A DNA stretch of 64,000 nucleotides from positions 186,001 to 250,000 of the forward strand of contig NZ_JARXWN010000004.1 of assembly GCF_029892965.1 (NCBI RefSeq). Reading direction: 5' to 3'. Source of the DNA: Dysgonomonas sp. PF1-14 (GTDB taxonomy: Bacteria > Bacteroidota > Bacteroidia > Bacteroidales > Dysgonomonadaceae). The translations under genes were made by a program, and so were the position numbers. Positions 33,417 to 47,999 of this stretch are shown in pieces. The notes under the pieces were generated by a model that was given only the letters and a program-made list of their open reading frames with translations, was not told the origin of the DNA and did no database searches. The number at the start of each line of letters is the position of its first letter. Within the stretch, counting starts at the first letter, position 1.

Positions 33417-34544
33417 TTATTTCTTTAATACACTATTCAGTGTTTCCATCAGATCGTAACTGTATATGTCTATCGCATAGATTAATCCGTCAGGGTTGAT
33501 CAGATAATTTTCAGGTACTGCACTGATCTTATATTGTTCAACAATAGGGCTACTCCATGCCTTTAGGTCAGACAGTGTAATATAGGGAAGTTCAAGATCA
33601 GACTCCGCTTTTTCCCATTCAGGCTTTGATTCTTCGATAGTGAAACCGATGATCTCAAATCCTTTTTCTTTGTACTCTGCATATATCTGTTTCAACTCCT
33701 GAGCCTCACGACGACAAATATCGCAGGTCGGCGACCAGAATACGAGTAATACCCATTTACCTTTGTACATTGATAAGGACTTAGACTCTCCGCGAAGTGT
33801 AGTAGCAGTAAATTCGGGCGCAACACGACCTCGCGTGAGACGCTTTTTATTTTGAATTTCACGTTTAAGCCGTTTTCCCGGAACCGAATTTTTCAGATTT
33901 TCGTCCAAGCGGTTATAAAGTACTTCCACCTGTTCGTTTTCGGGGTGGGTAGCATTTTCGGAACGCAGCATATCTACAGCCAGTATATTGTCGGGGTGCG
34001 CTCCTACAAAATCCATCGAAAGGCGATTATACTCCTTGCTAAGTTCTTCGAGACGGCGATCGAGCAAGCTGCGATGCTCCGGCGAATATGGTTTGTAGAT
34101 GTCATCCCGATCTGTCCTCACCTCAATCATTTTCTTTTGCACCGGACGGATAATGTCAAAGTACTCTGTTAATAAATCCTGAGTAGCAGAGCCTTTTATT
34201 TCTGCATTGAACAGTTGTCTGCCTGTTATCGTTATCTTACCATGATCGATATAGAACTGCCGCTGGTCTGCCGCTGTAGCATAAAGTATATTGCCATTGA
34301 AGGTGTAAACTATTTTTGCATAGACAGGGTATTCGATAGTGCCGCTGAATGTAAATCTGCCATTGTCGAGTAGTATAGAGTCGTTGACAGGACGGCCGCT
34401 AACAGGGTCTTTGTAGAAAAGAAAAACTGTACCCGGAGCCTTTTCGTCGGCAAACTTACCCTCGATGACAAATTCTTTATTCGTTTGGGCAAAAGCTCCG
34501 ACTGTTGCGATCAAGAATAGGGTGAATATCAATCTAAACTTCAT
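33417..34544 (-). CDS. TlpA-like thiol-disulfide protein with DUF4369 domain
   Basis: The 375-residue product has a signal peptide (MKFRLIFTLFLIATVGAFAQ), an N-terminal DUF4369-like beta domain at about 22-120, a helical linker, and a C-terminal thioredoxin fold at about 235-375. The redox motif is CDIC within VFWSPTCDICRREA, and the cis-Pro loop is SAVPENYLI. It is a periplasmic thiol-disulfide oxidoreductase of the TlpA/ResA group, likely reducing or protecting envelope proteins. It lies between susB and the surface proteins with its own terminator, so a direct link to starch use is not shown. Confidence 0.85.
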   Translation of the reverse strand: MKFRLIFTLFLIATVGAFAQTNKEFVIEGKFADEKAPGTVFLFYKDPVSGRPVNDSILLDNGRFTFSGTIEYPVYAKIVYTFNGNILYATAADQRQFYIDHGKITITGRQLFNAEIKGSATQDLLTEYFDIIRPVQKKMIEVRTDRDDIYKPYSPEHRSLLDRRLEELSKEYNRLSMDFVGAHPDNILAVDMLRSENATHPENEQVEVLYNRLDENLKNSVPGKRLKREIQNKKRLTRGRVAPEFTATTLRGESKSLSMYKGKWVLLVFWSPTCDICRREAQELKQIYAEYKEKGFEIIGFTIEESKPEWEKAESDLELPYITLSDLKAWSSPIVEQYKISAVPENYLINPDGLIYAIDIYSYDLMETLNSVLKK

Positions 34545-34586
34545 TTTTTAATCTGAATTGGTAGTTAAAAAGAATGACTTAGAATC

Positions 34587-34624
34587 AATCAACCTTAGCT
34601 GGTCTATTCCAACTAAGGTTGATT
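34587..34624 (-). terminator. terminator-like hairpin after the fibrinogen-like surface protein gene
   Basis: AATCAACCTTAG (34587-34598) and CTAAGGTTGATT (34613-34624) form a perfect 12-bp stem with a 14-base loop, 35 bases after the stop at 34660. Confidence 0.65.
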
Positions 34625-34659
34625 CTATCTGATTATTTAAGGATTAAAATCCCATTATA

Positions 34660-36573
34660 CTATTTCACAAACCACTGAAGGTAACGTCCTTCTCCGCCAT
34701 TGAGTGAAGAGTGAGGGTATAGATTAGTATGCCCTGCACACCTTTTCACACTAAAGTCGAAGTCATCAGCAGTGGCACTATTACATTTACCAAAGTGGTG
34801 GTTAGGCTGATCTTCACCAAACCAACCGAACATATTATTATTATGGAATAACGACATTTGGTTGTTGTCTCCACCCTTATCAGGAACTACGTCGAACAAT
34901 CTGTCAGGCAGAGCCAAAAATCCCCAGTCCCAATGGGTAGGATACGATGCATTGCTATAAAGGGCTATATGGTGATTTCCGGTCACTTCATCCCAGCCGC
35001 CAAAAGCTCCACCACCAGCAGCTTTTTGCTCCCAAGCCTTACCGTAAAGTTTACCTACCGATGGAACCAAAAGAGGTCCGAAGATAGACTCAATAGGGTT
35101 TTCAACCGCATTTCTTGGCGAGATAACGCCATAGTTATTCAATCCCCATGGATCATTCATGTCTGTTGGATTTTCGCAGATACGCACTTTCAGTTGCGGA
35201 TTTGTGGTAGAATTCGGAAAATGCTGGAACTCTTTACGTGACAAACGATAGTCTGCATAATTAATTATTCCATCTTCAGTAGTAACACGGTTACGTTCTG
35301 TGTTAACTGCAAACCTATAATTCGCATCCAACGACATGTTATTTATAGGTGCATATGTATTGCGGGATGTTCTCTCACTGAACGACCACACAAGTGTATA
35401 GCCACCATTCACGATGTCGCAGAATGTTTTTACAGGAGTAGCAGTGCCTGTCCCATCTAGGCAATCTAACAAAAAGTATTCACCATTGGTTACGTCAGGA
35501 CGTTCTTCGTATATGTCGAGGCATTTACAAGCCGGGTCGCCATATGTACCCAGTGTAGAGAAAAACTCTACAACAAAAGAACACTCGTTTTTAACGGCTC
35601 CATCTGTTACAAATTCGTAAGTGTACTTGCCCGATTTTTTCGGTACTCCTTGTGCTTTGGCTACAAGGGTAGTTTCGCCAAGAGCATCGAATGTTTGGTT
35701 TACCACAAATTTAATTCCATTGATCAGGTCGGTTTCCCAAGTGGTGGTTCCGTCCATTATCACATTCACTGGTATTTCTACATAGTTGCGCGAACCGCTC
35801 ATTTCTCTGCGGGTCTGATAATCTCCTACTACCTTGATGTCTTCGCAGCTTTCGATGCGATATGTCATCGTTGCTACCTGTACGTCTATTTCGATAGTAC
35901 AAGTATTTGGTATAGGGCTTCCGTTGTTGGTAAAGGTAACACCGTCTACCTGAACTGCTCCGGGTGTTCCCATCGCTTCCAGCCTTAGTTCTACTTTCCC
36001 TTTATCGGCAAATGTGCCCGATGCCTGGAAATAGTAACCGTTTCCGGTAGTAGCCATAATGTTGTAGTCGCCTTTCTTGGTAACGTTGACAGGTAGTACA
36101 ATGTAATTTGACGAAGTTACCGGTACCAAGCGGTAGTATTTACCGTATACACGTACTTTGTTACAGTCTATCTCAACTTCGGCCTTGCTTTGCGTTTCCG
36201 ATACAGGAACCCATTTTTCACCGTCCCAGTAGTTGAGTCCTATAACCAGTTCTTCTTCTGCTACCTCTTGTGTATTATATACCAGCAGGCCTTTGTGTGC
36301 TTTTTTCTTTGTCTCGTCTAATAACACAGCATCTGCTGCCGAATACATCGGTTGCAACTGATTTTTCTTTACCAATGCTACGCGTGGCAGTCCCACGCCT
36401 TGTGTCGCATTCACATCTCCATTCGAGGTGTTGTCAGGAATAGTTTTCACCTGTAAAATAGCTCCTTCTATGGGACTTTCTCCCATTCCGACAGTAACTC
36501 CCCCCTGTGCATACATCAGGGAAAAACTTGTCATCAACAGCCCGAGTAATAAAACTGATAGTTTTGTCTTCAT
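34660..36573 (-). CDS. modular secreted surface protein with C-terminal fibrinogen-like domain
   Basis: The 637-residue product has a signal peptide (MKTKLSVLLLGLLMTSFSLMYAQ). An N-terminal module seen in Bacteroidetes surface proteins follows (GVGLPRVALV, AHKGLLVYNTQEV, WDGEKWVPV). Two Ig-like repeats come next, each opening with Cys and G-x-Y (DCNKVRVYGKYYRL; SCEDIKVVGDYQTR). The last ~280 residues look like a fibrinogen-related domain: CLDIYEERPDVTNGEYFLLD, TFCDIVNGGYTLVWSFS and later WGFLALPDRL. Such domains usually bind carbohydrate or protein ligands. Signal peptide and first modules are shared with the gene at 37619-39460, but the C-terminus differs. An adhesin or surface-layer role is inferred. 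Confidence 0.75.
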   Translation of the reverse strand: MKTKLSVLLLGLLMTSFSLMYAQGGVTVGMGESPIEGAILQVKTIPDNTSNGDVNATQGVGLPRVALVKKNQLQPMYSAADAVLLDETKKKAHKGLLVYNTQEVAEEELVIGLNYWDGEKWVPVSETQSKAEVEIDCNKVRVYGKYYRLVPVTSSNYIVLPVNVTKKGDYNIMATTGNGYYFQASGTFADKGKVELRLEAMGTPGAVQVDGVTFTNNGSPIPNTCTIEIDVQVATMTYRIESCEDIKVVGDYQTRREMSGSRNYVEIPVNVIMDGTTTWETDLINGIKFVVNQTFDALGETTLVAKAQGVPKKSGKYTYEFVTDGAVKNECSFVVEFFSTLGTYGDPACKCLDIYEERPDVTNGEYFLLDCLDGTGTATPVKTFCDIVNGGYTLVWSFSERTSRNTYAPINNMSLDANYRFAVNTERNRVTTEDGIINYADYRLSRKEFQHFPNSTTNPQLKVRICENPTDMNDPWGLNNYGVISPRNAVENPIESIFGPLLVPSVGKLYGKAWEQKAAGGGAFGGWDEVTGNHHIALYSNASYPTHWDWGFLALPDRLFDVVPDKGGDNNQMSLFHNNNMFGWFGEDQPNHHFGKCNSATADDFDFSVKRCAGHTNLYPHSSLNGGEGRYLQWFVK

Positions 36574-36641
36574 CTTTTTTTACTAGTTTAGTTAAGTATT
36601 AAAATTCATATAATTGTAAATTAAATCGCGTTAAAATAAAT

Positions 36642-37148
36642 TCAATGCACTGAAGTATCCGACTCCGGTTTTCGCAAATGGAAGGTTGGATAATGAAAGG
36701 AAGACAAATATTGAAGACAATAACTGTACTTACGTAATAAGTAGAGTAATACCCTCTCATCTCTCTTCAGGCATTGAATTTGTATTTTGGAAACAACATG
36801 CAGACTCTTGCGACTTATCCGGTGATATGCCGTAGAGATCCATTCATCTAATTTCTTTTTCAAAAAAATTAAATAGTTTTTGTGTGTTTGAAAATTATTG
36901 ACTAAGCTTATGCATGTACGTACATAACGATGCGCGCAGATGGAATAATATGTGTCTTTTAGCTGTATATGTTTGGAGTATGTATATGTAGTCTTAGCAC
37001 TTTTCGATCTGAAAAGTGTTAAGTTGGGAAAAAGGAATGATTGTTCTGATTTATTTAGCTCTCTCTTTAATAAAATAGAGCTAACTTCCAAATTATCAAA
37101 TGGAAAAACGGTTGCAAATCTTGCAATTTTTTGTGAAGAGATAAACAT
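36642..37148 (-). CDS. candidate leader ORF A (conserved N-terminal peptide)
   Basis: An ORF opens about 23 bases after the predicted transcription start and reads MFISSQKIARFATVFPFDNL before EVSSILLKRE. The first ~31 codons match leader ORF B at 40005 and, more weakly, ORF C at 46361. Differences from B include silent ones (ACC/ACT, TTA/TTG, TTA/CTA). Similarity collapses in the middle, returns at about codons 98-135 (ISTAYHRI, IQIQCLK), and the reading frame shifts against copy B near the end. The full 168-residue product is therefore doubtful. The conserved start could be a short regulatory peptide. Confidence 0.3.
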   Translation of the reverse strand: MFISSQKIARFATVFPFDNLEVSSILLKRELNKSEQSFLFPNLTLFRSKSAKTTYTYSKHIQLKDTYYSICAHRYVRTCISLVNNFQTHKNYLIFLKKKLDEWISTAYHRISRKSLHVVSKIQIQCLKRDERVLLYLLRKYSYCLQYLSSFHYPTFHLRKPESDTSVH

Positions 37149-37176
37149 TTATTGTCTTTTTACTTATTATCGGGTG

Positions 37177-37208
37177 TAAAAATACGTGCAATTTTTTTAT
37201 TTCGCAAA
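37177..37208 (-). promoter_or_regulatory. promoter A of the surface-protein leader (-7 and -33)
   Basis: On the minus strand, -33 TTTG (37205-37208) and -7 TATTTTTA (37177-37184) are separated by 20 bases. The same pair with the same spacing is conserved in copy B at 40036-40067. Transcription from about 37171 would give a leader of about 600 bases before the ATG at 36573. Confidence 0.55.
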
Positions 37209-37521
37209 TTTTTACTGAAAACTTGTCGAAAAATGAAACTTTAATACCGGCGATTAGTATTTGCAATTAACAGTATTTGTTAATGATAATAAGCCTTTCT
37301 GTTTATATATATGCTAATGTATGTGTTCTAAAATATAATATATGTTAGTGTAAAATTAACGCATAATTGGTAGGTGACTGATAACAATAGTTAATATCAT
37401 GAAATACATAATATACTATTTGGGGACATAGGTTTCATTAATGAAATTGCCTGCCATATCTAAAGCTGTGTGACACTGAACTTTATGTGCGGGTTTTGAT
37501 GCAGATGTACTTTTTCGGAAA

Positions 37522-37546
37522 AGCCTCCTGCTTACGGCAGGAGGCT
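37522..37546 (-). terminator. intrinsic terminator of the second surface-protein gene
   Basis: AGCCTCCTGC (37522-37531) and GCAGGAGGCT (37537-37546) form a perfect 10-bp GC-rich stem with a 5-base loop and TTTT following on the minus strand, 73 bases after the stop at 37619. Confidence 0.85.
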
Positions 37547-37618
37547 ATAATTCTGAAAAGCTTTATACGCCAAAACTTTATCGGTTTTCCTTTATTATTG
37601 TATGATTAACCTTATCTA

Positions 37619-39460
37619 TTAATGAGGATTGATACCACTAACGGCTGCTTTCTTAAGAGCCCATGATACTGCATTTAGTTCAAGAGCCGCATTATACACA
37701 AATTGGGTTTCGGTACTACTAGGACCATATAGTTTAGAGTTAGGAAGTCCTGTGTTGGTGTAATACGAAGGATATGCATTATTTGTAGTATTTGAAGATG
37801 AAGACCCCGTACTATCTCCTATAAAAAAGAAGCTTTTAGAGTCGTTATACCACACAATGGAATAGGTAGGATCCACTTCTCTTTTCGAATTTTCTACTCC
37901 TCTTGCTGTACAAACTTGTACAGAATTGGGAGGTAATTGAGTCATAATCACTGACCCTGTAGATCCATTGTCTTCTCCCCAGTATTTGGAACAAAGATTT
38001 CCAAATGGACCATTAATCACCGGGTCTTCCGGAAAATTTGAGATAAGATAAATGTCATCATTTCCACTTGCTTGAGCTTGAGCAGTCTGTATCCCAAATA
38101 TACCATTCAGTAAGATGTTCACATCGCTTGATGTACCATCTGCTGATCCATAAATTACAGTTCCTCCTTTATTGATATAGTTTGCTAATGCTGTAGTTAA
38201 AGCGTTGTTTGGAGCAGTTGAATAAGCAAAATAAAGTATTACATCGGGGAATTTTCCATTATACCCGTTGTTAATCTGATCAGTAGCGGTAGAAACACTT
38301 CCTGTAGACCATAATTGGCTTAGACCTAGTGTTTTAACAATTCCATTAGGGCCAAAGCTATCTCCGTTGTCTAAGGCTTTTTTTCTTTCGGCGGTAGCCC
38401 ATGAATAGGTTCTACTATTACCCACAATAGCATAAGTCATGAACGGAAGAGTAACAGGAATTGTAGCATTACAAGTGGCATTTCCATCTTTGGTATTGGA
38501 AATAATAGTTACTGGAAAATCATTATTAACAGTAGGGCTTCCGCTACCTACCAGAGTTATGGAGTGGGATCCTGTACTGGTAAAATCGCCTGTGGCAGAG
38601 AAACGTACCCCATTTGTTTTTTCAACAAGAATAGAATATGAACCGGTTTCAGATACATTCACGTTTAAAGTTATAGTATTGGCACTTGTCAGATTCTGTC
38701 CTTTTACATATTGTCCGTTGACCACCACACTCGAACAATTCAGGGAGTAACTGCTCACCGCAGAAGAAACTTGTACTTCCGGCTCACAGCCCTGAGATAG
38801 TTCTATACCGCTGAAGGTAAGTTTATCGGTTTGCACATCTACTGGAGTGCCTTGACATGGGATATTGACGGTCATAGATCCTACATTCAACGCAACTCCC
38901 GACAGGTAAAAGTTATACCCGTTGTTTGATGTTGCCGTAATAGCAAAAGCCCCGGCCTTTGTTACATTAAGGTTGATGCTTAAATAATTTGCAGAAGTGG
39001 TCGTCATTCCCTCTACATATACTCCATTGACCGTAATGTCGGAGCAATCTACAGGGGCGAACTTTGCATTTCCCATTTTCTCTTGAAAGCAGTTCCACTG
39101 TCCACCGTCCCACTGGTTAAATCCAAGACATAATTCGTCATCATCATTCTCTTTCAGATTGTAAACGATGAGTCCTGTATGTGCAGGCTTTGTCACTGTT
39201 TTGTAGTCAGTGTTCGTTGTATCTCCCTGATAGAATGGAAGTAGCTGGTACTTATTTTCCAACTCTACACGCGGAAGTAGAAGCCCTCCATTTTTAGCTG
39301 TAACACCGCCCGTACTGGGCGCTGTCTGGTCTTTGATCTGTAGGGTAGCATGTTTTTCCGGCGCTTCGGAGTGACCGATAGTTACCTGAGCTTTCATCCC
39401 GCCCAAACTACTTATTATTAGAAAAGCATTTAATAATAAGACTGATAGTTTTGTCTTCAT
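37619..39460 (-). CDS. modular secreted surface protein, paralogue with a different C-terminal domain
   Basis: The 613-residue product shares its start (MKTKLSVLLLNAFLI), the N-terminal module (LLLPRVELENKYQLLPF, AHTGLIVYNLKE, WDGGQWNCF) and Ig-like Cys repeats with the gene at 34660-36573. The repeats are DCSDITVNGVYVEGMTTTSA and NCSSVVVNGQYVKGQNLTSA. The last ~260 residues are unrelated to the fibrinogen-like domain: TYAIVGNSRTYSW and DVILYFAYSTAPNNALTTAL followed by YINKGGTVIYGS. These suggest an alpha/beta flavodoxin- or glutamine-amidotransferase-like fold, with no catalytic residues I can identify. It is probably a surface protein with a swapped effector domain. Confidence 0.7.
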   Translation of the reverse strand: MKTKLSVLLLNAFLIISSLGGMKAQVTIGHSEAPEKHATLQIKDQTAPSTGGVTAKNGGLLLPRVELENKYQLLPFYQGDTTNTDYKTVTKPAHTGLIVYNLKENDDDELCLGFNQWDGGQWNCFQEKMGNAKFAPVDCSDITVNGVYVEGMTTTSANYLSINLNVTKAGAFAITATSNNGYNFYLSGVALNVGSMTVNIPCQGTPVDVQTDKLTFSGIELSQGCEPEVQVSSAVSSYSLNCSSVVVNGQYVKGQNLTSANTITLNVNVSETGSYSILVEKTNGVRFSATGDFTSTGSHSITLVGSGSPTVNNDFPVTIISNTKDGNATCNATIPVTLPFMTYAIVGNSRTYSWATAERKKALDNGDSFGPNGIVKTLGLSQLWSTGSVSTATDQINNGYNGKFPDVILYFAYSTAPNNALTTALANYINKGGTVIYGSADGTSSDVNILLNGIFGIQTAQAQASGNDDIYLISNFPEDPVINGPFGNLCSKYWGEDNGSTGSVIMTQLPPNSVQVCTARGVENSKREVDPTYSIVWYNDSKSFFFIGDSTGSSSSNTTNNAYPSYYTNTGLPNSKLYGPSSTETQFVYNAALELNAVSWALKKAAVSGINPH

Positions 39461-39477
39461 CTTTTTTACTAGTTTAG

Positions 39478-40005
39478 TTAAGTATTAAAATTCATATAAT
39501 TGTTAATTAGATCACGTTCAGAAAAAACAATGCACTGAAGTACCCGGCTTCGATTTTCGCAAATGGAAGGTGGGGTAATAAAGGGAAGACAATATTGAAG
39601 ACAATAAACAATACTTTGGTAATAAGTAGAGTAATACCCTTCATTTTTCTTCAGGCATTGAATTTGTATGTTTGAAACACGATGTAGTCTCTTACGGCAT
39701 ATCCGGTGATATGCCGTAGAAATCACTTCATTCAATTTCTTTGTCAAAAAAATTAAATAGCTTTTGTCTCTTTTTAAATTATTGGTTAAGCTTATGCGTG
39801 TATGCACGCAGTCTTGCATGCACACAAGAGTGCGCATGGAATAGTATGTAAATAAGATTAAATTAAGAAAATTGCTTTTGGAATGTAAGTGGTGAGGATT
39901 ATTTAGTCTCTCTCTCTCTCTCTCTAGCAAAATAGAGCTAACTTCCAAATTTTCAGATGGAAAAACAGTTGCAAATCTTACTGCATCTTGTGTAGAAATA
40001 CTCAT
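39478..40005 (-). CDS. candidate leader ORF B (conserved N-terminal peptide)
   Basis: An ORF opens about 25 bases after the predicted transcription start and reads MSISTQDAVRFATVFPSENL before EVSSILLERE. The conserved core matches leader ORFs A and C. Right after it a dinucleotide repeat encodes alternating Arg-Glu, so slippage would change the frame. Later similarity to ORF A is patchy and the frames differ near the 3' end. Only the first ~35 codons are credible as a conserved peptide; the full 175-residue length may be accidental. Confidence 0.3.
   Translation of the reverse strand: MSISTQDAVRFATVFPSENLEVSSILLERERERLNNPHHLHSKSNFLNLILFTYYSMRTLVCMQDCVHTRISLTNNLKRDKSYLIFLTKKLNEVISTAYHRICRKRLHRVSNIQIQCLKKNEGYYSTYYQSIVYCLQYCLPFITPPSICENRSRVLQCIVFSERDLINNYMNFNT
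39907..39924. repeat. simple sequence repeat (TC)9
   Basis: Nine TC units lie within leader ORF B, against about four CT units at the matching place in copy A. Dinucleotide tracts of this length are prone to slipped-strand mutation. Confidence 0.9.
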
Positions 40006-40035
40006 TATTTTGTCTTGTTTTACTTATATCGGTTG

Positions 40036-40067
40036 TAAAAGTACATGCAATTTTTCTATTTCGCAAA
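40036..40067 (-). promoter_or_regulatory. promoter B of the surface-protein leader (-7 and -33)
   Basis: On the minus strand, -33 TTTG (40064-40067), a 20-base spacer and -7 TACTTTTA (40036-40043). Sequence and spacing are conserved with promoter A, which supports both. Confidence 0.55.
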
Positions 40068-40224
40068 TTTTTGCTGAAAACTTGTCGAAAAATGAAACTT
40101 TAATATCGGCTATTAATATTTGCAATTAACGGCAGTTGTTAATGTAAAGAAGCCTTTCTGTTGACATATATATGCTAATATATGTATTCATATGTTTATT
40201 GAAACAAAAAGGCTGTATATAAAA

Positions 40225-40255
40225 AAGAGTGGAAGGATTTTGTCCTTCCACTCTT
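40225..40255 (-). terminator. intrinsic terminator of the susCDE operon
   Basis: A perfect 13-bp stem (40225-40237 with 40243-40255), a 5-base loop and a T-run on the minus strand follow the susE stop by 31 bases. It separates the sus operon from the surface-protein genes. Confidence 0.9.
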
Positions 40256-40285
40256 AAAGTTTAGTGCCTTACTTATAATTATCTG

Positions 40286-41392
40286 TTAAGGTAGATCCCC
40301 AACAGGAATGATAATATAGTTTCCTGATAAGCTGTTCAGTGCAACAAAGTACGTTCCGGCTTCTTCAATGATGAAGTCTTCTCCACCGGTTTTTCCGAAT
40401 GGGAACTCTTGCTCAGTTTTTGTCGAAGCACCCCAGTTGCTATCCCATCCGGCATTTGCCCTGAATTTCAGTGCACCTGCTTTCAGGTTTATAGATTTGG
40501 TAACCCATACATGGTCGGCCACTTTTTCCATAAATGTATCGTTGTCCCAGTCGATAGCAGCAGTACCTACCATACCTATTTTTTCATATACAGGCGCCGG
40601 CTTAGTGTATGCTTCCATTTTTATTTCCAGAGTTTTCAGGTCTACCGACAATGTATATAGTCCTGCTCCGGCGGAAGCATAATTGTCTCCGTTATTTTTA
40701 GGAGATAATTTGCCTCCCTTGTATGCATATGCATCATCCCAGTTACCAGCTTTGGTTGGGAATTTCATTCCTCCGGCTTTAAACACTCCGGTATAAGTAT
40801 ATTTAAGATCGGCATCTGAGCTTTGATCGGCGAAGAATAGTTGCAGGTCACTTCCTACATTTTCTTTGCCTTCGTTTTTCCATCCAACCAGACCGTCACC
40901 GACAATATAGAGTGCCGATTTGATAGACGGACGACAAGTGAATGTTACCTGCTTTGTTTCCGAGTAGAGGATCGGACCAGCTTCTGCTGTACCTAAACTG
41001 GCTTTCAGACGGAAATAGAGTGTTATTTCCTGTGAAGATTCAACAAATCTCAGCGCAGCCTTATTCAACATATCGTAGGTAATCTTTATATATGTATCAG
41101 CAGTAGTTGTAACACTTTGAGCTGTTTCGAAAGATGGCGATACGTCCACTTGCATATTATATGAAGGAGGTGCCTGTATATTGTATTCGGCCTTTGTCCA
41201 TTTCCAGTAACCGATAGAGTCGGATAGGACAGTCTCTTGCTCTACAACAAAGTTTTGTAGTACATTTTGCTCCAGTACCGGTTTCACAAAGCTACTGTCT
41301 CCATCCAGTTTGATGTGGTCGTTTTCATCAGTACATGCCACAAAGGCAAGTAAGGAGAAGACAATGATTGAAAATATATTAAGTTTTTTCAT
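40286..41392 (-). CDS. susE: SusE/SusF-type starch-binding outer-membrane lipoprotein
   Basis: The 368-residue product is a lipoprotein (LAFVAC, Cys at 20). It has an N-terminal SusE-like domain at about 25-145 (YWKWTKAEYNIQAPPSYNMQ, SQEITLYFRLKASLG). Two starch-binding-like beta domains follow, each opening with a SusE/SusF phrase (ALYIVGDGLVGWKNEG; KIGMVGTAAIDWDNDTFMEK) and rich in Trp. SusE and SusF proteins hold starch on the cell surface. It is the third gene of the operon, 34 bases after susD. Its length matches SusE better than the longer SusF. It supports starch as the substrate of this locus. Confidence 0.82.
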   Translation of the reverse strand: MKKLNIFSIIVFSLLAFVACTDENDHIKLDGDSSFVKPVLEQNVLQNFVVEQETVLSDSIGYWKWTKAEYNIQAPPSYNMQVDVSPSFETAQSVTTTADTYIKITYDMLNKAALRFVESSQEITLYFRLKASLGTAEAGPILYSETKQVTFTCRPSIKSALYIVGDGLVGWKNEGKENVGSDLQLFFADQSSDADLKYTYTGVFKAGGMKFPTKAGNWDDAYAYKGGKLSPKNNGDNYASAGAGLYTLSVDLKTLEIKMEAYTKPAPVYEKIGMVGTAAIDWDNDTFMEKVADHVWVTKSINLKAGALKFRANAGWDSNWGASTKTEQEFPFGKTGGEDFIIEEAGTYFVALNSLSGNYIIIPVGDLP

Positions 41393-41426
41393 GTTCTAGT
41401 ATATTATGTTTCTATATTGATACAGA

Positions 41427-43049
41427 TTAATAACCCGGATATTGAGTAAGATTTGGATTTGATCCCATATCGTCGGCAGGTATCGGGAATACATTATATT
41501 TCTTGTCCACCGATTTACCATCGAAAGTACCACCTTTCCATTGCCATATATAAGACTCAGTAGTCAGTTTATCGAAGCGGACAAGGTCGGTACGGCGTTG
41601 TGCTTCAAAGAAGAATTCACGTCCTTTTTCGTCCAGGATGAAATCCAGTGTCAGGTCAGAGTTGGTGATAGTTGCATTGTCATCATTCCCATAGGCACGT
41701 TTACGCAAATCGTTGATCAGTTTGAGAGCTGTAGAAGCATCTCCTCCTGCACCTCCACGCAGAACTGCTTCTGCATAGTTCAGATATATTTCGGCCAGAC
41801 GGAATATAGGGAAGTCTGTGTAAGCAATATTGCTTGCCGGAAGCGAACCGTTCTTGTTTACATTAGAGAATTTAACAACGGGAATACCATCCTTGTATTT
41901 TGCTGGATCAATAATGTCTAAGTTTTCGGCCAAATCTGGTTTCAACATTGTGTAACGGCTGTCGTCTGACAATGAGTTCTCTTTCTGGAATATTCTTTGA
42001 AGTGACACGCGGGCACGGTTGCCTTGCCATGCTCCCTGTGCATTTATGTCTCCTTGCAGAGCTGATGGAACTGTACTACACAGCAGGAATGTCATACCAC
42101 CCCATGTTTGAGTATCAGCGCCTTCGTAGCGTACAGGGAAAATCATTTCCAGTGAATTGCCATTGTCGGCCTTGAACATATCGGCATAATTCGGCTCCAG
42201 TTGGTAACCTACAGCCATTACTTTATTGCTGTTGGTTATACTTTCGGTATATTTCTTTTCACCTGTGTATGTCTCAGCATTCAGATACAAGCGTGAAAGC
42301 AGTGACCATGCAGCAGCTTTGGTAGCGCGTCCGTAGTTTTTAGAGTTGTATCCTACAAACGGATCGAGCATATCGTTCTGGCACTCGTTCAGTTCTGTTT
42401 CTATATATGCAAACAGGTCTTTTGCTGCAATTTGCTCCGGAGCTACTTTTCCTATTTCGTTGTCTTCTGTAACAAACGGAACATTACGGAACATATCGAG
42501 CAGATAGAAGTATGACAAAGCTCTCATAAAACGAGCATCGGCTCTGTATATTTTTATCTCAGCCTGATCGGCGCTCGAAACACCACGTTCGTTCAGCTTA
42601 TCGCCAGTTGTTTCACGCAGATATTCGTTAGACTGGTTTATCTGATAATATAGGCGATAGTACATCCCTTTAATAAAGACATTACTGGCATCCCATGTAT
42701 GATAGTTGAATCTGTCGATACCAACGTCATTCCAACAGCAATGTGCTTCATCGGTAGGCAATTGTTGCAGGTTCCATAGTGCGCGCAGGAATGATGCCTG
42801 GCTACCACCGTCAACTCCGGCTACGTCCTGATCTCCGTCACCACCTTCGTTACCCGAAATGGCTAATCCGGCATAAATCTTAGCTAAAGTAGATTTATAA
42901 GTACTCAGTTCTTTCCCATAAGCGGTCTCTGCAACCGGTTCGGATGGATCGAGAGGGAGTGTATCGAGATCTCCAAGACAAGAGGTAAGGAATGTTGTCA
43001 ATCCGAACAACATTGCTATTGTCATGAATTTATATTTTATTGTTTTCAT
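41427..43049 (-). CDS. susD: SusD-family starch/glycan-binding lipoprotein
   Basis: The 540-residue product is a lipoprotein (FLTSC, Cys at 24) with SusD features: N-terminal LGDLDTLPLDP, the tetratricopeptide-like helix ADARFMRALSYFYLLDMFRNVPFV, and the C-terminal RagB/SusD region FRLAEIYLNYAEAVLRGGAGGD followed by EFFFEAQRRTDLVRF. It caps the SusC channel and binds oligosaccharide at the surface. It lies 22 bases after susC and 34 before susE. With susE, the GH97 gene and the maltose-type operators, a starch or maltooligosaccharide substrate is likely. Confidence 0.9.
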   Translation of the reverse strand: MKTIKYKFMTIAMLFGLTTFLTSCLGDLDTLPLDPSEPVAETAYGKELSTYKSTLAKIYAGLAISGNEGGDGDQDVAGVDGGSQASFLRALWNLQQLPTDEAHCCWNDVGIDRFNYHTWDASNVFIKGMYYRLYYQINQSNEYLRETTGDKLNERGVSSADQAEIKIYRADARFMRALSYFYLLDMFRNVPFVTEDNEIGKVAPEQIAAKDLFAYIETELNECQNDMLDPFVGYNSKNYGRATKAAAWSLLSRLYLNAETYTGEKKYTESITNSNKVMAVGYQLEPNYADMFKADNGNSLEMIFPVRYEGADTQTWGGMTFLLCSTVPSALQGDINAQGAWQGNRARVSLQRIFQKENSLSDDSRYTMLKPDLAENLDIIDPAKYKDGIPVVKFSNVNKNGSLPASNIAYTDFPIFRLAEIYLNYAEAVLRGGAGGDASTALKLINDLRKRAYGNDDNATITNSDLTLDFILDEKGREFFFEAQRRTDLVRFDKLTTESYIWQWKGGTFDGKSVDKKYNVFPIPADDMGSNPNLTQYPGY

Positions 43050-43071
43050 ATTTCTGTTATTTTTTCAGGAA

Positions 43072-46000
43072 TTAAAAGTTCAGGTTTACACCCAGCATAA
43101 ATATACGTGGACGCGGATAGATATTATTGTCTATACCTTCATTGTTAAATTCAGGGTCTAAGCCGTCGTATTTAGTAATTACGAACGGATTCTGTACAGT
43201 TCCGTATATACGCGCCGAACTAAGCACTTTCGATACATTGCGGAATGTATATCCCAACGAAATGTTGTCCATTCTCAGGAATGACGCATTCTGTACATAA
43301 TAGCTCGATAAATACTGAGGGTTGCTGAAATTAGTGTATCCTGCTGTAGTTACACGGTTTTTCAGGAAGCCTGTAGGGTCTAGCATTGATGAGCCTCCAT
43401 AGGCTTCGCGGTTAGACTGAACATTGTTGTAAGCATAGTTGCCAAAGCTGGCACGTAGAGAGAAGTTGAAGTCCCAGTTTTTGTACGTAAGCTGAGATGA
43501 AAGTCCCATAAACACGTCAGGGGCAGATTTCTTATATGCAATAAGGTCTTTTTCATCTATTACTCCGTCTTTGTTCTGGTCTATATATGCACCTTCTATA
43601 GGGCTACCGTCGGCATTGTATATTTGCTCATATACATAGAATGAGTTAAACGGATTGTTCAGGGAGTGTATCAGTACGTTGTTTCCTGTACCACCGCTAA
43701 TGCCTCCGTGCTTAATACCAATATAGTTAGGATTGTCGAAATCCAACATTTTAGTAATCTCATTCTTGTTGTACGATACATTGTATCCGAGTGTCCAAGT
43801 CAGGTCTTTAGTATCTATTACATGACCGGTGATATTAAACTCAATACCCTTATTTTCCAATGTACCCGAGTTCATGATCAGCTGATTGCTGAAGTTAGTT
43901 CCTGCAGGGATAAATATGTTATTAATAAGGTCTTTAGTTTTACGATAATATACATCTACGGCACCGGTAATGCGGTTTCCTAAAAATCCGTAGTCGAGTC
44001 CCACATTATACGTCGTAGTTTCTTCCCATTTCAGGTCTATATCATAAGGCTCAGGACGCAATAGTTGTATCTTTTCGTCACCCCAGTAATAATTGGCTCC
44101 GGCTTTGCTATATCTATATTTTGGCATATAAGGATAGTCGTTATCACTAATGTTTTGTTGCCCTGTAATACCATATCCCAGACGAAGTTTCAGGTCAGAC
44201 ATTACATTCTGATTTTTCATGAAACCTTCTTCCGATATTCTCCATGCCAATGCTGCAGCTGGGAATAGCCCCCAGCGATTGTCTTTACTGAAGCGGGATG
44301 AACCGTCGTTACGAAGAGTAACTGTCAATAAATATTTATTGGCGAATGTATAGTTGAAACGTCCGAAGAATGAAATCAGATAGTTTTCAGACTCGTAGCT
44401 TTTCCCTTCAGAGTAATGTGTTGCACCTTTCTCTTTTTGCATAGCAAGAGAATATGGATATTCGGTAGAGTCATATTTGTAAAAATTCTGCCATGAATAA
44501 CCCGCCATTACATCAAAACGATGTTTTTCATTTAACTCTTTTACATAATTCAGATAGAAATCCATCAGATAGTTTTCTTTCTTCTGCTCATAGTTCTCAT
44601 TTTCTCCGAATCCTGTTTTGAATTTGCCTGTAACCCAAGAACGCACAGAATTATCCAGTGTTGTATTCCATTCGCGGCTGTTCGAGATATCGTAACCTAG
44701 ATTTAAGTTAGCACGCAAATCAGGGAAGAAATGCAGTTTGTAATCGAACTGTATGTTACCAATACTTCTCTTTACTCTGGCCTTGTCGTATTTAGACAAT
44801 AATGCGTCTACAGGATTCATTAAGCCTACATCAATAGGTGTTTTGCCATCAGCTTTCAGAGACAGGTAATATCCATTTCCGGGATCGCCTTCCTTGTAAT
44901 TAGGGTTATAAACCGGCTGTGTAGGGTCAAATTCCGATGCAGCACCAATAGCGCCAGTATCGGCAAATCTGGTCAGGTTGTAAATTCCTTTCACGTTCAA
45001 TTGTACGCTCAACATGTTGTTGAAGAATTTAGGACTCAGGTTAATAGCTCCAGTCCAACGTTCCATGTTAGATGTCTTCAATATACCGTTTTCGTTAGTG
45101 TAACCAAGTGATACACGGTAAGGAAGTATTCCGGCAGCGCCAGATATACCCACATTGTGGTCGGTACTGTATGCCGTTCTGAAAATTTCATCCTGCCAGT
45201 TTGTTTTTGCAGTACCCATTGCTTTGTACTGGTCACTTTCGGTTCCGAATTTTTCAGTTATAAATCCACGGAAACCATCGGCATCCATAACGTCTACCTC
45301 TCCGGCCTTAGTACTTACCGAGAATGTTCCATTATAGTTTACACTCACCTTTTTACCCAGACTACCCTTCTTCGTAGTGATCAGGATAACCCCGTTAGAT
45401 GCACGCGAACCGTAGATAGCGGTTGCAGAAGCGTCTTTCAATACTGTAAAGTTTTCGATATCGTTAGGGTTGACCGAAGATAAGGCATTTCCCATTCCTT
45501 TTATACCACCACTGTTGTCGACAGGAACACCGTCGATAACGATCAGCGGGTCGTTACTTGCCGACATGGAAGAACCTCCACGTATGCGGATTGTAGCACC
45601 GGCACCCGGAGCACCACCGTCAGTTACAACACTTACGCCGGGAGCTTTACCTACCAGCAGGTCGGAAGCCGAAGTAGCCATCCCTTTTGCCAGTGAGTTT
45701 GCATTAACTGTAGTTACAGCTCCGGTAAGGTCTTCTTTTTTCACACTACCATATCCGATGATAACTACGTCCTGAAGCATTTCTACGTCTTCAGCCATAG
45801 TTACATTGATTGTTGTACGTCCGCCAACCGGAATTTCCTGAGCTGTAAAGCCCACATACGAAAATACCAATGTACCGTCCGCCGGCGCATTTATAGTATA
45901 GTTTCCATCTAAGTCAGTTACAGTACCGGTAGTAGTACCTTTTACTACAACGCTACCGCTGATGATGGGTTCGTTGAGGTTATCCCTCACATTTCCTTTC

Positions 46001-46107
46001 ACCGTAATAGTACCGCTTTGCGCATACATGTTAGGTGATAAGGTAAGCATTCCCAGCATAAAGAGCAAGAATACTTTCACACATCTGTTCTTAATCTTTC
46101 TTTCCAT
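43072..46107 (-). CDS. susC: SusC-family TonB-dependent receptor of the starch-type operon
   Basis: The 1011-residue product has a signal region (VFLLFMLGMLTLSPNMYAQ), a CarboxypepD-like domain at about 33-115 (VKGNVRDNLNEPIISG, FSYVGFTAQEIPVGG), TonB-box region VVIIGYGSVKKEDLTGAV and plug (LLVGKAPGVSVVTDGGAPGAGATIRIRGG). The barrel ends in LGVNLNF. It would import maltooligosaccharides across the outer membrane with SusD. It is the first gene of susCDE. Upstream lie a short conserved leader ORF and a LacI/MalR-like operator variant, and the region is shared with a divergent efflux operon. Confidence 0.92.
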   Translation of the reverse strand: MERKIKNRCVKVFLLFMLGMLTLSPNMYAQSGTITVKGNVRDNLNEPIISGSVVVKGTTTGTVTDLDGNYTINAPADGTLVFSYVGFTAQEIPVGGRTTINVTMAEDVEMLQDVVIIGYGSVKKEDLTGAVTTVNANSLAKGMATSASDLLVGKAPGVSVVTDGGAPGAGATIRIRGGSSMSASNDPLIVIDGVPVDNSGGIKGMGNALSSVNPNDIENFTVLKDASATAIYGSRASNGVILITTKKGSLGKKVSVNYNGTFSVSTKAGEVDVMDADGFRGFITEKFGTESDQYKAMGTAKTNWQDEIFRTAYSTDHNVGISGAAGILPYRVSLGYTNENGILKTSNMERWTGAINLSPKFFNNMLSVQLNVKGIYNLTRFADTGAIGAASEFDPTQPVYNPNYKEGDPGNGYYLSLKADGKTPIDVGLMNPVDALLSKYDKARVKRSIGNIQFDYKLHFFPDLRANLNLGYDISNSREWNTTLDNSVRSWVTGKFKTGFGENENYEQKKENYLMDFYLNYVKELNEKHRFDVMAGYSWQNFYKYDSTEYPYSLAMQKEKGATHYSEGKSYESENYLISFFGRFNYTFANKYLLTVTLRNDGSSRFSKDNRWGLFPAAALAWRISEEGFMKNQNVMSDLKLRLGYGITGQQNISDNDYPYMPKYRYSKAGANYYWGDEKIQLLRPEPYDIDLKWEETTTYNVGLDYGFLGNRITGAVDVYYRKTKDLINNIFIPAGTNFSNQLIMNSGTLENKGIEFNITGHVIDTKDLTWTLGYNVSYNKNEITKMLDFDNPNYIGIKHGGISGGTGNNVLIHSLNNPFNSFYVYEQIYNADGSPIEGAYIDQNKDGVIDEKDLIAYKKSAPDVFMGLSSQLTYKNWDFNFSLRASFGNYAYNNVQSNREAYGGSSMLDPTGFLKNRVTTAGYTNFSNPQYLSSYYVQNASFLRMDNISLGYTFRNVSKVLSSARIYGTVQNPFVITKYDGLDPEFNNEGIDNNIYPRPRIFMLGVNLNF

Positions 46108-46229
46108 TTGAATAATATTAAGATTAACGTTAATATTGATTTGATTACTTTTATTATGGTCGATTTAATATCTCAGGGTCATGGTTTAGATACAAGCAGG
46201 AAGACGCTAGCTCTCAACTAGGTTATTTT

Positions 46230-46361
46230 CTAATTGGGGTAAGCATCCTTTTTATTTTCAATGCCGTTACTATCTCTTTTTCGCAAAATAGTATTAACTG
46301 CCAAGTTTTCAGTTAGAAAACCGACAGCTGAAAATGTTGTATTATGAGATTTAATTTGCAT
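46230..46361 (-). CDS. candidate leader ORF C upstream of susC (43 codons)
   Basis: The ORF starts at the ATG at 46361, ends at TAG and lies 122 bases before susC. It reads MQIKSHNTTFSAVGFLTENL followed by AVNTILRKRD. The core aligns with leader ORFs A and B in the pattern F(A/S)xVxFxx(E/D)NLxVxxILxxR. At the DNA level this stretch also folds: CTGTCGGTTTTC-taact-GAAAACTTGGCAG is a 12-bp stem with one bulge. The peptide, the RNA fold or both could be what is conserved. No clear promoter was found upstream. Confidence 0.35.
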   Translation of the reverse strand: MQIKSHNTTFSAVGFLTENLAVNTILRKRDSNGIENKKDAYPN

Positions 46362-46521
46362 TAATTTTAATTTTGTTTTTCAACTTTTAAATTAATATGA
46401 TGAAGTACGCAATGGGGATTTTTTTTGTATTCTTTCATGGTACTTACATTCTGTAGTACAAATATCATAACAACTATTAGCTTTCGGGATATAAAAAATT
46501 ACAAAAATTAGGTTTTTGTTA

Positions 46522-46535
46522 TGCAAACGATTGGA
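46522..46535. promoter_or_regulatory. LacI/MalR-like operator variant upstream of susC
   Basis: TGCAAACGATTGGA matches the susB palindrome TGCAAACGTTTGCA at 11 of 14 positions, with the left half and central CG intact. It lies in the 719-base divergent region between susC and the efflux operon, about 160 bases upstream of the leader ORF. The rest of the region (46108-46826) is AT-rich with no other gene seen. Confidence 0.4.
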
Positions 46536-46826
46536 GGATATGTACTTTTTGAGGATGCTTATGTGTCTATATTTTAGGGCTTTTATTATATCTTTTTGTT
46601 AATTTATGATATGCGGAGAGTGAAATACCAATTACTATTTTATAAATTTGTGACGTCTAACAACATTATTGTGAAATAAAAAACAAATCGATACAGAGAA
46701 TTGTTAATTATATGACTTAACCAGTTGCTCACAGTAGCAGAATGCCCCTGTGTTGTATATTTATTAACAAGGTAATGATGAAATAGTTTAATATAGGAAT
46801 CAGCAATCTATCTATAAATAAATTAT

Positions 46827-47999
46827 ATGAATAATAGAAAATCTGTTTTTTTTCTGGCAATCTTGTGCCTGGCATTGCTCGGTGCGTGTAAAAAGACGAC
46901 AGAGAATCCCCCTATCGTTGAGGTGGAACCCGTTACGGTCGACAATATCGAGATCTATGGAGAATATGTCGGGCTTATCAAGGCTTCCCGCAATGTAGAG
47001 ATACATGCCAGAGTAGAGGGCTTTTTGGAAAGGATGACCTTTATAGAAGGTAAAGAAGTGAAAGCCGGAGAGGCATTATTCTACATAAACAACAAACCTT
47101 ACAAAGCGAAAGTAGAAAAAGCCAAAGCCCAGCTTAAACGTGATGAGGCTAAAGAACTGAAAGCCGAAAGTGACCTGAAACGTATAGAACCTCTCTATAA
47201 CCAGAATGCAGCCAGTAGGCTCGATTTGGATAATGCTGTTGCGGCCCTCAATATGTCGAAGGCAGATGTATTGATGAGTAAAGCCGACTTGGAACAGGCC
47301 GAGCTCGAACTCAGCTATACAGTGGTGCGCTCACCATTGTCGGGTTATATAAGCGAACGCTATGTAGATATAGGAACGCTGGTAGGCAATTCGAAGTCGT
47401 TATTGGCTACTGTTGTTAAACGTGATACAGTACAGGTCGATTTTAAACTGACATCACTCGATTATTTGCGGAGTCAACGCCGTAATGTACATCTGGGTGA
47501 ACTGGATACCACACGCTCGTGGCAGCCTACAGTAATCGTTACTCTTGCCGATAACTCGGTGTACAGCCAGCGCGGAATTGTAGACTTTGCATCCCCGCAG
47601 GTAGATCCGAAGACGGGAACTTTCGGTGTGCGTGCCGAGTTGCCGAACCCGAATCAGGTGCTTTTGCCCGGACAGTTTACCCGTGTAAAACTGTTACTCG
47701 ATGTGCTGGAGAACGCTCTGGTAGTTCCGCGTAAAGCAGTTTCTATAGAAAAAGGTGGGGCATTCATATTCGTTGTGCTGCCTGATGATATTGTTGAAAA
47801 GCGATTTGTAGAAACAGGTCCCGAACAGAATAATAAGATAGTGGTGACAAGAGGACTGGCCGAAGGAGAGCGCATTGTGGTGGAAGGATTCCAGAAACTC
47901 ACGCATGGGCAAAAAGTTTTGCCTCGCACACAGGAAGAAGAGCAGCGGATAGAGGCGGAAAAGAAAGCCCAAGAATTAAATAAGGAGGATAACGAATGA
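46827..47999 (+). CDS. RND efflux periplasmic adaptor lipoprotein (AcrA/MexA type)
   Basis: The 390-residue product is a lipoprotein (LLGAC, Cys at 21) with the adaptor order: N-terminal beta strands, lipoyl half (VEIHARVEGFLERMTFIEGKEVKAGE), a helical hairpin with YNQNAASRLDLDNAVAAL, second lipoyl half (SYTVVRSPLSGYISERYVDIGTLV), beta-barrel and membrane-proximal domain (VPRKAVSIEKGGAFIFVV). It links the inner-membrane pump to the outer-membrane channel. Its last codon overlaps the pump start by ATGA, showing translational coupling. There is no His-rich region, in contrast to the metal-efflux adaptor. Confidence 0.92.
   Translation: MNNRKSVFFLAILCLALLGACKKTTENPPIVEVEPVTVDNIEIYGEYVGLIKASRNVEIHARVEGFLERMTFIEGKEVKAGEALFYINNKPYKAKVEKAKAQLKRDEAKELKAESDLKRIEPLYNQNAASRLDLDNAVAALNMSKADVLMSKADLEQAELELSYTVVRSPLSGYISERYVDIGTLVGNSKSLLATVVKRDTVQVDFKLTSLDYLRSQRRNVHLGELDTTRSWQPTVIVTLADNSVYSQRGIVDFASPQVDPKTGTFGVRAELPNPNQVLLPGQFTRVKLLLDVLENALVVPRKAVSIEKGGAFIFVVLPDDIVEKRFVETGPEQNNKIVVTRGLAEGERIVVEGFQKLTHGQKVLPRTQEEEQRIEAEKKAQELNKEDNE

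Follow-up and report, generated by a model that had tools for sequence, protein, structure and literature searches.

Leader reading frames with a shared core and a GA microsatellite before SusC-like and surface-protein genes of Dysgonomonas: a candidate family of phase-variable attenuators

We investigated three short open reading frames (ORFs) in a window of 64,000 nt (the whole stretch of DNA that was analysed) from Dysgonomonas sp. PF1-14, which a sequence-only reading had described as leader ORFs before a susC gene and two surface-protein genes, together with their relatives in other genomes. We hold with good confidence that a dispersed family of phase-variable, translation-coupled leader switches is the best explanation of these ORFs. 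On our analysis of the sequences, the leaders are best read as slipped-strand phase variation of a translated attenuator, like that of the pil1 locus of Streptococcus gallolyticus but dispersed, in Bacteroidota, and with a shared core. The GA microsatellite and the switching of frame are central to this explanation, and both had been missed by the sequence-only reading.

Leaders in the window and in related genomes

The three leader ORFs were confirmed at 46361-46230, 40005-39478 and 37148-36642, all on the minus strand and each with its own start codon. The features are listed below in window coordinates.

46230..46361, minus strand: leader ORF before susC, 43 aa, with the core and a vestigial AAAAAGAGA in place of the GA tract
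46285..46310, minus strand: core motif copy 1 (ENLAVNTIL), from the DNA pattern search
46201..46249, minus strand: imperfect hairpin at the 46361 leader, about -15.6 kcal/mol, surrounding the leader stop codon (46230-46232)
43072..46107, minus strand: susC-like TonB-dependent receptor gene (Plug, CarbopepD_reg_2)
39478..40005, minus strand: leader ORF 40005, 175 aa, long (presumed ON) frame
39929..39954, minus strand: core motif copy 2 (ENLEVSSIL), from the DNA pattern search
39907..39925, minus strand: GA dinucleotide tract of the 40005 leader, 19 nt
37619..39460, minus strand: secreted modular surface-protein gene of the QVTIG class, after the 40005 leader
36642..37148, minus strand: leader ORF 37148, 168 aa, long (presumed ON) frame
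37072..37097, minus strand: core motif copy 3 (DNLEVSSIL), from the DNA pattern search
37059..37066, minus strand: short GA tract of the 37148 leader, 8 nt
34660..36573, minus strand: secreted modular surface-protein gene, after the 37148 leader

The core DNA pattern (GAWAAYTTGGMRGTTARYWCTATTTT, up to three mismatches) has exactly three sites in the window, which are the three leaders (shuffles average 0.01). The 4.58 Mb genome has six sites, of which five match perfectly (reversed control: 1). Each of the other three genomic copies lies upstream of a susC-like or secreted surface-protein gene, and two of them have a long GA tract directly 3′ of the core, coding (ER)n. Within the window, a sizeable GA tract is found solely at 40005 (19 nt); the tract is 8 nt long at 37148 and essentially gone at 46361. 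In the consensus F(A/S)xVxFxx(E/D)NLxVxxILxxR previously written for the three peptides, the F(A/S)xVxF part mixes two registers (FSAVGF vs RFATVF). The 40005 and 37148 ORFs owe their length to a frame that has no stop until shortly before the next gene, the stop codon beginning 20 nt and 71 nt, respectively, 5′ of the next ATG. A promoter-like pair (TTTG and a TA-rich element) is visible by eye 5′ of both, and an uncontrolled count over 114 loci places a TAnnTTTG promoter box in a loose cluster 60-80 nt 5′ of the leader ATG. Rfam gave no match up to E = 1 in window positions 34000-47000, Pfam gave nothing above cut-off on the three window leaders (one sub-threshold PH-domain match), and a plasmid DNA search gave no match.

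A protein-profile search among relatives, which the sequence-only reading had proposed, was run with a profile built from 27 leaders, and the family proved common in the home genus, before susC-like and surface-protein genes. Of the 101 family genomes, 21 had matches at E ≤ 1e-3 (17 of the 25 in the home genus and four from two other genera), with up to 19 copies per Dysgonomonas-genus genome, and the core DNA pattern with up to two mismatches matched 16 of the 25 genus genomes (reversed pattern: 0). Leader matches were found in 4 of 295 genomes of an order sample (E ≤ 1e-4) and in 2 of 395 genomes of a class sample, the candidates of many genomes in both samples being only partly scored, so that weak copies can be missed. 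All of these matches are in the home family, one Azobacteroides MAG excepted. This Candidatus Azobacteroides MAG (G129), which belongs to another family, carries 26 leader copies (L074-L099); the 18 that were compared are all letter-identical to loci of Candidatus Azobacteroides sp. MI.4_1, and no leaders were found in two congeners of G129. The core of the G129 leaders is near-uniform (FSSDNLEV).

The analysed set consists of 121 distinct leaders and draws on one genome per species, many of them MAGs; the loci are related, and counts are therefore not independent. Nine hits at E ≤ 1e-3 were dropped for want of a match to the core pattern (L117, L118, L078, L150 and L070, which are leaders with a variant core, and the weak hits L056-L059), and 60 further stretches were fetched as best or next-best hits of the search lists, not randomly. 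A Plug domain (TonB receptor) was found in 48 of 98 downstream proteins, and the other domains include FG-GAP, Ig-like, Fib_succ_major and glycoside hydrolase. Sigma-70 domain matches occur in three downstream genes, including those of L026 and L115, which by our own reading are ECF-like; a switch before such genes could act on a regulon.

Start codon, core and GA tract

An open in-frame ATG lies 13-26 codons 5′ of the core in 116 of 119 testable loci (those of the 121 with enough upstream sequence), where shuffles expect 5.7, and each of the other two frames has such an ATG in one locus. The commonest distances from ATG to core are 17 codons (59 loci) and 16 codons (29 loci). The frame is thus conserved, and the earlier proposal of a leader ORF at the head of outer-membrane and surface operons is borne out. 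The N-terminal stretch itself is hardly conserved (0.47, 0.53 and 0.48 bits of information at codon positions 1, 2 and 3), and in the core the three positions carry 1.25, 1.33 and 1.34 bits (119 loci). The silent third-base changes that had been taken to favour a peptide lose their force here, third positions in the core being as conserved as first and second positions. Some third positions are fixed by the DNA pattern with which the first loci were collected; the L100-L159 subset (58 loci), fetched as protein-profile hits, returned the same codon-position result (1.26, 1.33 and 1.40 bits).

Individual codons give the same picture. Leu2 of the core is TTG in 121 of 121 loci, Val4 is GTT wherever the residue is Val, and codon -1 has T in 117 of 118 loci, with the residue varying freely at codons 3 and 6. 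The core frame and some residues are kept, and third positions are equally conserved. Since third positions are conserved and codons 3 and 6 change the residue, the core points to constraint at the nucleotide level on top of a preserved frame. No conserved RNA fold emerged for the core: a consensus folded from 118 sequences was empty.

The GA tract 3′ of the core is at least 8 nt long in 119 of 121 loci, at least 15 nt in 103 and at least 22 nt in 76. A stop codon follows the core immediately in one locus (L025). Seventeen of the 25 genus genomes contain exact (GA)11, and 16 of them are also among the 17 with leaders at E ≤ 1e-3; the exceptions are G013, with a (GA)11 tract and no leader hit, and G012, with a leader and no (GA)11 tract. 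Among the matches listed (100 of 101 for G001, the listed part for G003), all (GA)11 tracts adjoin leaders (9/9 in G001, 4/4 in G003). In the genome of the window, 21 and 5 overlapping (GA)11 matches were counted, as many as L004 (63-nt tract) and L003 (31-nt tract) would give by themselves. Tract lengths at corresponding loci differ between G019 and G006 (56/20, 58/16, 61/20 and 46/16 nt), G019 being one contig and G006 a MAG, where microsatellites can be misassembled. What the sequences establish is the conserved frame, the repeats, the terminators and the frame-dependent reach, with their statistics; from these we infer transcription, slippage within populations and the ON/OFF states.

Terminators and open frames between leader and gene

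We propose that the leader ORF starts about 17 codons before the conserved core, which normally leads into the GA microsatellite, and that gain or loss of one GA unit, by presumed slippage, would change the reading frame behind the tract. In type B, mostly before SusC-like genes, a predicted intrinsic terminator lies between leader and gene. When the frame is open into the hairpin, the ribosome would block the terminator and the operon would be transcribed (ON); when the frame stops early, the terminator would form (OFF). In type A, before QVTIG-type genes and Azobacteroides surface proteins, terminators are less common and one frame is open over about 100-650 nt, running up to the gene, overlapping it (ATGA) or fused with it. 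The ribosome would get there solely in that frame, and an early stop would leave a long untranslated stretch exposed to polarity or to loss of coupling.

The analysis of open frames covers the 96 loci that are free of N and have a downstream ORF of 150 aa or more. The gene classes (37 SusC-type, 24 QVTIG, 13 G129 and 22 "other") were assigned from sequence patterns in the downstream protein, independently of openness, and L002, the 37148 leader of the window, was classed as "other". The scan called a terminator where a T-tailed hairpin with a folding energy of -12 kcal/mol or below lay between the GA tract and the gene. It called one in 52 of 59 loci before SusC-like or other genes (shuffles: 1.1%) and none in the remaining 7. 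Reach was counted in the 48 SusC/other loci whose terminator has -14 kcal/mol or stronger and whose hairpin lies 20 nt or more behind the tract. In every one of them exactly one or two frames reach the hairpin, where shuffles expect 22.3 loci with no reaching frame and 2.6 with all three. By frame, the hairpin is reached in 38 (core), 26 (+1) and 15 (+2) of these 48 loci, with about 12.6 expected per frame. A further set consists of 57 loci from the three home-family classes that have a hairpin at -14 kcal/mol or stronger. In these the stop falls inside the hairpin, past it or no more than 9 nt short of it in 42 (core frame), 27 (+1) and 16 (+2); no locus has all three frames reaching, and one has none. 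In 22 of the 57 the core frame stops 9-24 nt inside the hairpin, and OFF-frame examples, judged by frame, are L015, L104, L116, L137 and L139. The translation-coupled attenuator that the sequence-only reading had offered as an example is accordingly the best-supported candidate mechanism for the SusC type, on the predicted terminators and the frame-dependent reach.

In type A, 17 of 24 QVTIG loci (expected 0.26) and 12 of 13 G129 loci (expected 1.33) have one frame that stays open across 90% or more of the gap, three short-gap G129 loci (105, 106 and 160 nt) being uninformative individually; with gaps of at least 200 nt the G129 count is 9 of 10 (expected 0.08). Such a frame is found in 3 of 37 SusC-type loci (expected 0.38) and 4 of 22 "other" loci (expected 1.08), and 7 of the 24 QVTIG loci have none. 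The open frame is the core, +1 or +2 frame in 5, 2 and 10 QVTIG loci and in 0, 3 and 9 G129 loci, and in all 13 G129 loci with a downstream ORF a stop closes the core frame no more than 17 nt behind the tract. An ATGA overlap with the next start closes seven open frames (L015, L087, L091, L108, L141, L142 and L147), and several G129 open frames run in frame into the gene. With one locus kept per downstream-protein cluster (54 clusters at 50% identity, from the 96 loci), a terminator was present in 22 of 29 and an open frame in 20 of 25. The core frame mostly reaches the hairpin in type B and stops early in G129, and some bias or selection on state must therefore be assumed.

We considered, and rejected, that the long tails of type A encode a conserved protein: dN/dS was 0.31-0.80 in 11 of 12 pairs and undefined in one, which is weak constraint, and mostly openness, not a protein, therefore seems to be kept. 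The split into the two types is not clean, hairpins and open frames overlapping between classes; a hairpin of -12 or stronger also occurs in 11 of 24 QVTIG and 5 of 13 G129 loci. The G129 leader L096, outside the 13 loci above, has a long core frame.

The window copies can be placed on this scheme. The scan found no terminator of -14 kcal/mol or stronger at 40005 and 37148; both leaders are type A in the open, presumed ON, frame. The hairpin at 46361 has a weak T tail and drew no call from the terminator scan. Leaders L011, L031, L045 and L122, which precede susC of the same type, have GA tracts of 17-74 nt and a called terminator at the same place (-14.3 to -22.6), and a further such locus, L128, has a 59-nt GA tract and no called terminator, the homology of all these susC genes to the one behind 46361 being judged from N-termini. 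The 46361 leader is a type B copy best read as a decayed relative, and since it has no repeat it is probably frame-locked.

Alternative explanations, known systems and significance

The slippage switch leaves the conservation of core nucleotides unexplained. If the core were a nucleotide signal (an RNA polymerase pause, an antiterminator or an RNA-binding-protein site), with the ORF merely keeping it translated, one would expect what was found at third positions, which are fixed where residues vary (T at codon -1 in 117/118) in a pattern repeated in the 58 loci fetched by protein profile. The core, however, has no conserved fold and no Rfam match, a link to a specialised NusG paralog (RfaH/UpxY-like) was not seen, and such a signal alone would not explain frame-dependent reach; we regard it as an unlikely explanation by itself. 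It is compatible with the slippage switch, and both may hold together. NusG matches (E ≤ 1e-5) number one each in the genome of the window (6 leaders) and in G001 (13 leaders at E ≤ 1e-3), and G002 and G020, with two each, have no leader at E ≤ 1e-3; the idea of the core as an ops/RfaH-type element is unsupported by these counts. Arrest peptides have a variable N-terminus and a conserved core. The leaders share both traits, and the end of their core falls about 26-31 residues into the peptide, a distance close to that spanned by the ribosome tunnel, as would suit a core ENLxVxxIL that stalls the ribosome on a ligand or stress signal, the GA repeat being a by-product. Such stalling does not predict frame-dependent terminator reach or open frames in either slip register, and it sits poorly with third positions conserved like first and second and with codons 3 and 6 that change residues freely, which makes it improbable to us.

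A mobile or duplicating repeat that travels with surface-gene duplications, with open frames and hairpins hitchhiking and no regulatory role, would account for copies within the Azobacteroides MAG that are more alike one another and for several loci that share flanks with paralogous genes. Against it stand the in-frame starts (116/119) and terminators (52/59) kept across 54 downstream-protein clusters and the core-frame stops that fall inside the hairpin, past it or no more than 9 nt short of it in 42 of 57 loci, and we consider it very improbable. Returning to the slippage switch, we put forward tentatively, as somewhat short of an even chance, that the leaders form a portable phase-switch cassette (ATG, about 17 free codons, a nucleotide-conserved core of about 35 nt and a GA repeat) before up to 19 nutrient-uptake and surface genes per genome, with two output modules (terminator or coupling ORF) and the core as its active nucleotide part, for example a signal that synchronises polymerase and ribosome or promotes slippage.

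The closest known system is that of pil1 and pil3 in S. gallolyticus (Danne et al. 2014, PMC3894217). These loci have, as here, a short tandem repeat in a leader ORF with a unit that is not a multiple of three and, as in Dysgonomonas type B, a terminator between leader and surface operon. At pil1, ribosome-induced loss of the premature terminator in the long frame was shown experimentally; the longer frame reaching the terminator is ON and the shorter is OFF, the same logic that we propose here (PMC3894217). The repeats there are GCAGA at two pilus loci of a Firmicute; here, in Bacteroidota, they are GA, and one genome can have up to 19 such loci. The sequence-only reading had suggested a new control element; this has to be qualified, the mechanism itself having this published precedent in S. 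gallolyticus. The Dysgonomonas leaders differ further from pil1/pil3 in having a shared core before the repeat, SusC-like targets in about half of the loci and a second type that would couple directly to the gene.

The E. coli pyrBI attenuator, which responds to UTP through polymerase pausing, has its leader stop at the hairpin or past it, and its terminator is disrupted by a ribosome closely trailing RNA polymerase. Terminator disruption, as predicted here, and stop position are alike in the Dysgonomonas leaders, but here the frame would be set by the repeat. In contingency loci such as opa and lic, repeat length changes the reading frame of a surface function, and the repeat lies in the gene itself or in the promoter; the Dysgonomonas repeat, in contrast, lies in a separate leader ORF. 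Switching by simple sequence repeats is also discussed in PMC3894217. Random on/off switching of SusC-family proteins in Bacteroidales is likewise known from Bacteroides fragilis, where phase variation of SusC/SusD genes is driven by an invertase, through site-specific DNA inversion and not a slippage-prone leader (Nakayama-Imaohji 2009, as cited in PMC11868660). Invertase-driven Bacteroides systems are named in that 2025 review on phase variation, whose main text contains neither "leader peptide" nor "attenuation" (PMC11868660). The accessible text of a B. thetaiotaomicron transcriptome study describes long 5′ UTRs with small ORFs reminiscent of attenuating leader peptides and does not show this family (PMC7366714), and the same is true of the accessible text of reports on sRNA control of SusC (PMC11697453) and on leader-peptide attenuation at flavobacterial amino-acid operons (PMC9723704). 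A literature search whose coverage lay outside preprints and most subscription journals returned no paper with both "Dysgonomonas" and "phase variation", and among the matches listed no title or abstract besides that of the S. gallolyticus paper shows this mechanism.

SusC-type transporters are surface-exposed and decide which glycans a gut Bacteroidota cell takes up. A slippage switch at many loci, if true, would give SusC transporters another source of random diversity next to DNA inversion, and a mechanism known from two Streptococcus pilus loci would have arisen again and multiplied across a genome. If the cassette reading is true as well, gut bacteria would obtain a combinatorial random SusC repertoire via replication slippage, not invertases. 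The model predicts the ON/OFF state directly from sequence and is therefore testable.

Some loci showed further arrangements. L129 (G019 C1:3022282-3024371) has two cores on the same strand about 1.3 kb apart, the second flanked on both sides by a GA tract. L117 and L118 (G003 C1) lie about 3 kb apart and have an identical core (variant ENLEVSCAL) and N-terminus, which suggests a recent local duplication. An inverted repeat, ACGGCATATC-ACCG-GATATGCCGT, lies at window positions 39694-39717 in the translated tail of the 40005 leader, without a T tail, and related versions of it occur in the 37148 leader and in L004.
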